DNA of 12,764 bases from an uncultured Oscillospiraceae bacterium (GTDB taxonomy: Bacteria > Bacillota > Clostridia > Oscillospirales > Oscillospiraceae), in the NCBI GenBank assembly GCA_934623545.1, contig CAKTVN010000021.1:1-12764 (forward strand), given 5' to 3'. The stretch's first letter is position 1. Each line of letters opens with the position of its first letter. This document shows positions 711-12,764 of the stretch, piece by piece. The notes beneath the pieces are model-generated. The model ran no database searches and had not been told where the DNA came from. It saw nothing but the letters and a program-made list of their open reading frames with translations. A program made the translations under genes and the position numbers.

Positions 711-767
711 ATAAGAAAAGCACCACTGTGTCCAACCCAAGCGGGTTCGGATTGCAGTGGTGTTTTC
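711..767 (-). terminator. Long rho-independent terminator of the tRNA-Gly unit
   Basis: A long interrupted hairpin lies immediately 3' of the tRNA on the minus strand. CACCACTG (721-728) pairs with CAGTGGTG (755-762), flanked by A4/T4 (716-719 with 763-766), and inner stems TCC/GGA (731-733 with 749-751) and AACCC/GGGTT (734-738 with 743-747) close an AAGC loop. On the minus strand it is followed by CTTTTCTTATTTT, a U-rich tract. Because the plus-strand side also ends in TTTT, it may also terminate transcription coming from the transposase. Confidence 0.85.
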
Positions 768-770
768 AGA

Positions 771-844
771 TGGAGCAGGATACGGGAATCGAACCCGCCT
801 CCTCGGCTTGGGAAGCCGATGTACTACCGATGTACTAATCCTGC
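771..844 (-). tRNA. tRNA-Gly, anticodon CCC
   Basis: Read on the minus strand this folds as a complete tRNA. The acceptor is GCAGGAT/ATCCTGC, the D arm GTAC-ATCGGTA-GTAC, and the anticodon arm TCGGC-TTCCCAA-GCCGA with anticodon CCC. A 4-nt variable loop follows, then the T arm GCGGG-TTCGATT-CCCGT with a G-T closing pair, discriminator T and a genomically encoded CCA. It decodes GGG glycine codons. It is the last of three related copies in transcription order and the only intact one. No separate promoter is evident directly upstream (845-875 holds a palindrome, arms ATCGCGC/GCGCGAT), so it probably depends on the promoter at 1285-1313 and on processing from a longer transcript. Confidence 0.97.
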
Positions 845-875
845 GTATTGACTTTTTGATCGCGCTTCGCGCGAT

Positions 876-1049
876 GATACGGGAATACTCCGGCGGCAAG
901 CCGCCTCCGTGCCGCAGCGCATTTTCTTCTGGCTTTGCCAAAAGTTGCGATGCTGCGCATCGCGACCGTCTGGCGACGGCAAAATGCTTGCGGTCGCCCG
1001 CGCCTCTTCGACTTGGGAAGCCGATGTACTACCGATGTACTAATCCTGC
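876..1049 (-). pseudogene. Split tRNA-Gly(CCC) copy 2 (5' portion, 92-bp insert, 3' remnant)
   Basis: On the minus strand, 1049-1001 reproduces the tRNA-Gly from base 1 through the variable loop into the T stem. The anticodon loop TTCCCAA is intact, with two substitutions in the anticodon arm and variable region. The T arm is then replaced by a 92-bp segment (1000-909). A 33-bp stretch (908-876) follows, starting with a GGAGGCGG block and ending in ATTCCCGTATC, matching the 3' T-arm/acceptor start of the intact tRNA, but the final CTGCTCCA is not retained. It cannot form a normal tRNA. The 5' portion is certain; assigning 876-908 as the displaced 3' part is inference. Confidence 0.7.
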
Positions 1050-1080
1050 ATATGAACTTTTTGACCGCGCTTCGCGTGGT

Positions 1081-1254
1081 GATACGGGAATACTCCGGCG
1101 GCAAGCCGCCTCCGTGCCGCGGCGCATTTTCTTCTGGCTTTGCCAAAAGCTGCGATGCTGCGCATCGTGACCGTCTGGCGACGGCAAAATGCTTGTGGTC
1201 GCCCGCGCCTCCTCGGCTTGGGAAGCCGATGTACTACCGATGTACGAATCCTGC
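1081..1254 (-). pseudogene. Split tRNA-Gly(CCC) copy 3, promoter-proximal
   Basis: The architecture matches the other split copy. 1254-1206 is the tRNA 5' portion with one change between acceptor and D stem (TA to TC) and an intact anticodon arm. 1205-1114 is the 92-bp hairpin-rich segment, and 1113-1081 is the candidate 3' remnant ending in ATTCCCGTATC. The segment is flanked by perfect 7-bp copies of GGAGGCG (minus strand; 1206-1212 and 1107-1113). Being closest to the promoter, it would be transcribed first. The lesion makes it non-functional as a conventional tRNA; a processed tRNA-like fragment remains possible but unproven. Confidence 0.7.
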
Positions 1255-4968: not shown

Positions 4969-4997
4969 AAAGCGCCGCCCGAAGGGGCGGCGCTTTT
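4967..4997 (+). terminator. Rho-independent terminator of the PH-domain gene
   Basis: GCGCCGCCC (4972-4980), loop GAAG, GGGCGGCGC (4985-4993), then TTTT (4994-4997). The upstream A-run overlaps the stop codon and can extend the stem against the T-run. It is immediately followed by a GTCACCCC palindrome. Confidence 0.93.
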
Positions 4998-5040
4998 GTC
5001 ACCCCGGAGGGGTGACATTCTATCCGCGCCAAAGGCGCGG
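4998..5040 (+). repeat. Two-hairpin palindromic module, copy 1
   Basis: GTCACCCC-GGA-GGGGTGAC (4998-5016), a 9-nt linker ending TATCC, and a second hairpin with arms CCGCGCC/GGCGCGG (5024-5040, loop AAA). The same arrangement is found at 5620-5659 (minus orientation) and from 12694. It begins at the first base after the terminator T-run. No coding content. Confidence 0.85.
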
Positions 5041-5056
5041 GGGGCGGTTCAACCCC

Positions 5057-5543: not shown

Positions 5544-5731
5544 TTGCGGTCTCACCGCAAAATCGGCACTCCGGTGAATCCGGAGAAAGCCTCCCGCGTC
5601 CTCCGGACGCAATTACCCTCGCGCCTTCGGCGCGGATAAGGTGTCACCCTTTGGGTGACGAAATCGCGTCCTTCGGGCGCAAAAACGTCCCCCTTTCGGG
5701 GGACGTAGAGGCGTCACCCCTTCGGGGTGAC
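5544..5731. repeat. Train of eight short perfect or near-perfect palindromes
   Basis: Consecutive hairpins with mostly 3-5 nt loops and 4-10 nt linkers: TTGCGGT/ACCGCAA (5544-5560), CTCCGG/CCGGAG (5569-5585), GCGTCC/GGACGC (5596-5610), CGCGCC/GGCGCG (5620-5634), GTCACCC/GGGTGAC (5643-5659), GCGTCC/GGGCGC with one wobble (5666-5680), ACGTCCCCC/GGGGGACGT (5685-5706) and GTCACCCC/GGGGTGAC (5713-5731). The pair 5620-5659 is module copy 2 in minus orientation. It is not CRISPR: the units differ in sequence and there are no spacers. It lies directly 3' of the DUF2804 gene terminator, in the gap between the convergent PH-domain and DUF2804 units. Confidence 0.85.
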
Positions 5732-5757
5732 AAAATGGCGTGCTTCGCTCACCATTT
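5732..5757 (-). terminator. Terminator of the minus-strand operon, overlapping the stop codon
   Basis: On the minus strand AAATGG (5757-5752) pairs with CCATTT (5738-5733), with further pairs inside around a GAA loop and one internal mismatch, ending in TTTT (5735-5732). The DUF2804 stop codon TGA (5751-5749) lies inside the stem, so translation termination and hairpin formation could interfere. The next base begins the GTCACCCC palindrome. Confidence 0.75.
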
Positions 5758-12660: not shown

Positions 12661-12693
12661 AAAGAGGGCGGACCCGGAAGGGTCCGCCCTTTT
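12661..12693 (+). terminator. Rho-independent terminator of the ABC exporter operon
   Basis: AGGGCGGACCC (12665-12675), loop GGAA, GGGTCCGCCCT (12680-12690), then a T-run to 12693. An A-run lies upstream, directly after the TAA stop. The base after the T-run starts another GTCACCCC palindrome. Confidence 0.95.
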
Positions 12694-12759
12694 GTCACCC
12701 CGAAGGGGTGACGCCTTATCCGCGCCGGAGGCACAGGGGCTGCCGCGCCCGAAGGACGC
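12694..12759 (+). repeat. Two-hairpin palindromic module, copy 3, plus a further hairpin
   Basis: GTCACCCC-GAA-GGGGTGAC (12694-12712), a 9-nt linker ending TATCC, and a degraded GCGCC hairpin follow the same order as at 4998. Then GCGCCC-GAA-GGACGC (12745-12759) is identical to the minus strand of the hairpin at 5666-5680. This suggests another hairpin series continuing past the right edge. Confidence 0.8.
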
Positions 12760-12764
12760 GGAAC

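Follow-up and report, generated by a model that had tools for sequence, protein, structure and literature searches.

The two incomplete tRNA-Gly copies that precede an intact tRNA-Gly(CCC) gene in the window (the whole stretch of 12,764 nucleotides analysed here) are likely to be tRNA-Gly genes interrupted in the T-loop by a small, structured and non-coding element that belongs to a TLR-like family. The best reading of the array is that of a collapsed and duplicated form of this TLR-like family in Firmicutes. The family would be a second one of the TLR type: its core differs, the succession of its parts agrees, and with its range of target tRNAs, its tandem arrays and its filled and empty sites it offers a comparative handle on how tRNA-linked repeats (TLRs) arise.

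Organization of the tRNA-Gly array

The tandem array was recovered by TRF as a single detection (positions 796-1254, period of 205, 2.2 copies, 94% matches). Together with the ARAGORN call and the sequence itself, this bore out the preliminary description of an array with an exact 205-bp spacing and one intact copy (Table 1). The two full units were identical at 192 of 205 positions, i.e. they differed at 13. In transcription order, each split copy consisted of the tRNA 5' part, the motif CGGGCGA, a 108-nt core of nested hairpins, and the 10 nt TTCCCGTATC. As CGGGCGA precedes the core and TTCCCGTATC follows it, the core occupies the expected place of the T-loop. This core, of which copies exist in other genomes, accounted for most of the 156 bp separating the 49-nt tRNA parts.

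Table 1. Features of the tRNA-Gly array, with positions in the window and the evidence for each.
Feature	Position	Strand	Basis
Intact tRNA-Gly(CCC) gene with encoded CCA, last in transcription order	771..844	-	ARAGORN; Rfam RF00005, 63.5 bits
Unit 1, full 205 bp	1254-1050	-	Sequence, TRF
Unit 1, tRNA-Gly 5' part up to T-loop remnant	1199..1254	-	47/48 identity with the first 48 nt of the intact gene
Unit 1, core element	1091..1198	-	Within R2 match 1073-1217, 50.7 bits
Unit 1, remnant of tRNA 3' side, TTCCCGTATC	1081..1090	-	Sequence
Unit 1, spacer, runs into unit 2	1050..1080	-	Sequence
Unit 2, full 205 bp	1049-845	-	Sequence, TRF
Unit 2, tRNA-Gly 5' part up to T-loop remnant (CGGGCGA)	994..1049	-	46/48 identity with the first 48 nt of the intact gene; sequence
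Unit 2, core: P1, P2 with three inner hairpins, P3; ends GGAGTA	886..993	-	Within R2 match 868-1012, 56.8 bits; helices, fold
Unit 2, remnant of tRNA 3' side, TTCCCGTATC; remaining acceptor strand and CCA lost	876..885	-	Sequence
Unit 2, spacer, 31 nt, runs into intact tRNA	845..875	-	Sequence
Probable terminator of the transcribed tRNA, a long hairpin before a T-rich stretch	712..762	-	By eye

According to the preliminary description, only the last copy had a T-arm and a 3' acceptor. The distal acceptor strand and the CCA are indeed lost in the sequences of the other two, but their T-arm is split by the core rather than absent outright. The displacement of the 3' third, also reported there, was confirmed; what had been overlooked is the conserved hairpin element lying in between, which is found beside several tRNA genes in relatives.

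ARAGORN called a single tRNA in the array, the intact tRNA-Gly(CCC) (771-844, minus strand). The covariance-model scan that had been proposed for this region was run with the Rfam tRNA model and returned 63.5 bits for the intact gene and 31.1 bits for the copy at 978-1049 on the minus strand (cut-off of 29), where core sequence was taken as T-arm and acceptor; no call was made for the copy starting at 1254. Neither split copy possessed the closed acceptor stem and CCA end of a functional tRNA, their acceptor 3' strand being replaced after ATC, and because of this replacement of the distal strand they should not work as tRNAs. As the interrupted copy at 978-1049 nevertheless passes the Rfam cut-off, a false tRNA may end up in automatic annotations, a warning that an interrupted tRNA copy can exceed the cut-off of a tRNA model. 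Possible roles of the split copies include that of a recombination substrate or of a source of tRNA-like fragments.

The hairpin at 712..762 was not listed by a simple terminator scan with a loop limit of 8 nt. The promoter scan of the window returned three promoter-like sites compared to 0.9 in shuffles; one of them (9/12 matches), at 1356-1329 on the minus strand and approximately 75 bp upstream of unit 1, is by itself no evidence.

Distribution and structure of the core family

The family sampled for relatives was the one holding G008 (the genome of L012), Firmicutes bacterium CAG:176. With the whole array as a DNA query, a match was obtained in 248 of 300 sampled family genomes, mostly to tRNA-Gly relatives (up to 97%), and the best match was a core relative without a tRNA (L021, 86%). 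Searched alone, the core matched 13 of 400 genomes at E <= 1e-3 (two candidates scored per genome), some weak matches, e.g. L081 and L082, being judged non-elements by eye. Model R1, built from an alignment of 14 core copies including two from the window, found the core in 17 of 400 sampled family genomes (eight candidates scored per genome, stricter filters). A fuller R1 search covered 25 genomes, i.e. these 17 carriers and 8 genomes reached via relatives of the neighbouring solute-binding protein (at most 59% identical), and found the core in 17 of the 25, with none in the 8. Four Faecalibacterium and Gemmiger genomes (G003-G006) gave no matches in this fuller search. At the order level, R1 detected the core in 4 of 345 genomes, the new ones being G421 and G451. 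Tandem arrays of the core were also present in G113 (five units), G123 (two units) and G421 (three units). The comparison with relatives suggested in the preliminary description as a test of the locus thus revealed that the core recurs beside tRNA genes in related genomes.

Model R2, built from 22 core copies with neither window row included, detected both window cores (56.8 and 50.7 bits), the next match in the window reaching 13.8 bits. A chance or low-complexity repeat was ruled out by this leave-out model together with the covariation. In a first alignment with three named helices, 97.8% of the cells were paired and two-sided changes occurred in 11 of 16 pairs, with 24 two-sided cells compared to 5.2 in shuffles (0/500); sliding the partners gave no more than 4. 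In a second alignment, restricted to two helices as P3 had been shifted by the aligner, and composed of rows nearly all found via R1 and hence biased towards the structure, 97.3% of the cells were paired, with 23 two-sided cells compared to 4.8 in shuffles (0/500) and at most 1 in the slid-partner control. One of the five covariation measures, the further pair types in the second alignment, was unexceptional, being reached by 41 of 500 shuffles. The inner hairpins were variable in both number and sequence.

Several other candidates were rejected. The 14-nt pattern CCGGAGTATTCCCG matched in 20 of 300 genomes compared to 2 for a reversed control pattern, and it was discarded as an element marker since, by eye, L056 and L057 were elements and the other 18 of the 20 loci were without the rest of the element. 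A phage origin was set aside because the match of the array to 12 phage records concerned the tRNA part only; the unit spacer had no match among phage or plasmid records, and viral contigs contained no exact match to the tRNA 5' pattern or to any of three core patterns. With Rfam, only tRNA matches exceeded the gathering threshold in the window (one of them overlapping the core edge), and only tRNA genes did so in the relatives searched (9 loci and 6 loci), so that no known RNA family was assigned to the core itself in either set. No description of such repeats in Firmicutes was recognised among the titles and abstract openings surveyed, and the portions of PMC8040213 and PMC2864571 consulted mention no such tRNA-adjacent motif.

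A different repeat of approximately 134 bp, made of ATGATG-spaced hairpins, follows a tRNA-Thr array at L076/L133 (G290:C3) and has mainly the last hairpin of the core in common with the family. Gut-1 RNA scored 31 bits against a cut-off of 50, and did so solely in this different part of the repeat at L076.

tRNA genes beside the core and tRNA-matched ends

Genomic context was compared at 43 loci, drawn from 52 places of the fuller search, 4 new places of the order search, and the window, with one row per tandem array. Upstream of the core, 21 loci had a called tRNA on the same strand, 9 had a partial tRNA, 7 lay near a contig end, and 6 had no tRNA within 900 nt. Sixteen of the 21 called tRNAs were located 41-58 nt before the start of the model, and one of the 21 (L128) had lost its own CCA end. 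Nine anticodons were represented among them (Gly-CCC, Glu-TTC, Leu-CAA, Leu-TAA, Ala-CGC, Ala-GGC, Thr-CGT, Val-GAC and Ser-CGA), the Ser-CGA case being G451 from the order search.

The tail following the core resembled the 3' end of the tRNA at the same locus: over 12 nt, 10.0/12 positions matched compared to 6.7/12 for tRNAs of other kinds, and none of 10,000 permutations was as good (18 loci, namely the 21 with a called tRNA minus L128, L153 and L154). The match was clear or intermediate at 13 of the 18 loci (L133 being intermediate) and not better than with other tRNAs at the remaining five (L074, L075, L107, L108 and L117), although at L074 and L075 the acceptor part, beyond the 12 nt tested, matches by eye. 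Between the tRNA and the core, the tRNA 3' end was also found as an inverted copy (7.9 compared to 5.5; 0/20,000; 18 loci, with L153 included and L128, L133 and L154 left out), the values at L052 and L104 falling below the mean of other tRNAs. In relatives including L052, L104, L106 and L125, the 3'-end copy extended over 17-19 nt up to the CCA.

The usual layout in relatives, which holds for most but not all tested loci, is tRNA, terminator (by eye), inverted 3'-end copy, GGTTCGA (T-arm-like), core, and a second, direct 3'-end copy; in several relatives, a hairpin and a T-run could be read from the sequences both before and after the unit. Neither the inverted copy nor a full copy of the tRNA 3' end was found in the window, and the canonical layout is thus absent there.

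Comparison with the TLRs of Escherichia coli

The TLRs of E. coli were first described in 1978 (Egan and Landy 1978; Rudd 1999, as cited in PMC8144298). According to the sections of PMC8144298 consulted, they comprise 22 repeats at ten loci, with one to five per locus, are linked to tRNA or rRNA genes, and end in 18-19 bp that repeat exactly the 3' end of the RNA gene upstream; the function of those in tRNA operons is given there as still not known, while the rRNA-linked ones (the rrA/rrB/rrF small RNAs) are transcribed and bind Hfq and CsrA.

The copy numbers of the core family, two in the window and one to five in relatives, fall in the same range. The tyrT repeats of strain K-12 (rtT; Rfam RF00391) also present the same succession of parts, with an inverted T-stem, GAGAAGC...GGTTCGA, hairpins, GAGTA, and then a 3'-end copy starting from the T-loop. 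In contrast, the sequence and helices of the core are unlike those of the E. coli repeats, the window core is situated within tRNA copies that lie upstream of the intact one, and the identity of 18-19 bp with the 3' end is reduced in the window to TTCCCGTATC, i.e. 10 nt (11 with the preceding A). The array behaves like TLR-type repeats and probably descends from them; the window copies were not classed as TLR members, as this defining full 3'-end copy is missing.

In the tyrT region, the three rtT copies ranked first with R1 (15.9, 15.8 and 12.7 bits), several P1/P2 pairs remaining unformed, and again with R2 (21.4, 19.9 and 16.7 bits, with 6.9 bits for a fourth repeat). These R2 matches are weak, with E-values of 8e-5 to 9e-4 for three of the four repeats and 0.15 for the fourth, all rough estimates for the 2.4 kb searched. 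Because R2 did not find the rrB TLR and the argQ/argZ-adjacent repeats, and plain tRNAs scored up to 10.9 bits, homology between the core family and the E. coli TLRs is suggestive only. RF00391 was absent in all three carrier genomes searched (G384, G206 and G290). A more tentative proposal is that both families could be products of one process, in which hairpin elements would be placed exactly in tRNA T-loops, with 3'-end copies on both strands, in at least two bacterial phyla.

Integron attC sites and cassette arrays likewise consist of tandem imperfect palindromes whose structure is more conserved than their sequence, a trait shared by the array. They differ in their end sequences, and neither cassettes nor an integrase were seen in the window.

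The cores may act as RNA, in the manner of the E. coli rrA/rrB/rrF TLRs, with arrays raising the dose. The two-sided changes within base pairs are consistent with this, as are the hairpins and T-runs read on both sides of the unit in several relatives. The E. coli small RNAs, which are structured, lie behind an RNA gene and between two terminators, and include a copy of that gene's 3' end, provide a precedent (PMC8144298, in the sections consulted). However, hairpins of single-stranded DNA would covary too, the inner hairpins differ in number and sequence, and the window cores lie upstream of the tRNA rather than between its terminators. A further difference is that the E. coli RNAs come after 5S rRNA and are bound by Hfq and CsrA.

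Filled and empty tRNA-Ala sites

A tRNA-Ala(CGC) gene in G384 (L145) and a tRNA fragment in G206 (L146) both had a plain tRNA 3' end followed by the flank CACGAGAAGATAATCCG. The same flank was found in G384 at L144, after a T-loop holding the core and a tRNA 3' end altered at a few positions past the core, and at L150, after a canonical unit with terminator and core and an unchanged 3' end. L144 and L145/L146 thus share the downstream flank and differ by the core in the T-loop; the left flank is common to L144 and L146 and not to L145. From the comparison of L144 and L150 with L145 and L146, the sites therefore differ by the core, or its unit, at the T-loop, and we infer that this difference reflects a gain rather than a loss. 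L144, L146 and L150 are tRNA fragments at apparent ends of integrated elements, and for L144 the comparison therefore shows no insertion into a working gene.

Such tRNA-Ala 3' fragments of approximately 40-60 nt, preceded by non-tRNA DNA and resembling the ends of integrated elements, were observed at L144, L146, L148, L149 and L150, with repeated AACCCATAC motifs alongside at L148. The core could be regarded as the leftover attachment region of integrative elements targeting tRNA genes, an improbable explanation. The cores in which a 3' tRNA fragment of that length follows non-tRNA DNA (L144, L148, L149 and L150), the AACCCATAC motifs, and a left flank common to L144 and L150 would fit it. 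A tRNA was however called upstream at 21 of the 43 loci, 16 of these lying at the 41-58 nt given above, and five of the nine partial tRNAs start near tRNA position 30 and not in the T-loop.

Proposed origin of the array

Under the preferred reading, in which a TLR-like element occupies the T-loop of tRNA genes, the element would insert at the T-loop, the incoming unit giving the tRNA a new 3' end and a terminator while the old 3' end would be pushed downstream. The window array would lack the middle part (3' end, terminator and inverted copy), owing either to a deletion between the two GGTTCGA motifs or to direct insertion into the T-loop. The tRNA-core unit would then have been duplicated by unequal exchange between tRNA 5' parts. 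The tRNA would be supplied by the last, intact copy, and the two split copies, in which no full acceptor stem could form, would at most be transcribed as a structured leader RNA. Some of the layouts could also be explained by duplication and deletion without mobility.

Neutral decay, i.e. a tandem tRNA duplication in which two copies lost their 3' ends around an accidental spacer, is a very remote prospect. The interrupted copies do carry point changes and lack a full acceptor stem, yet the spacer belongs to a conserved family located beside tRNA genes of nine anticodons, with ends that are mostly tRNA-matched; the suggestion of the preliminary description that the split copies are simply decay leaves this recurrence, the covariation and the matched ends unexplained. 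An assembly artefact is more doubtful still, as 13 of the 205 positions distinguish the two units and the same core forms tandem arrays in other assemblies too (the five, two and three units of G113, G123 and G421).

Two further features were observed in the window. Positions 1-585 on the plus strand hold a partial IS transposase with integrase-core domains of the rve type (Pfam rve, rve_3 and rve_2), which is open at the window edge and ends approximately 185 bp from the intact tRNA. A second hairpin repeat, of the CACCCCTTCGGGGTG type, is located at 4978-5043, 5594-5740 and 12674-12761, where its two direct copies show 80% similarity and its inverted copies are complementary at 77% and 97%.
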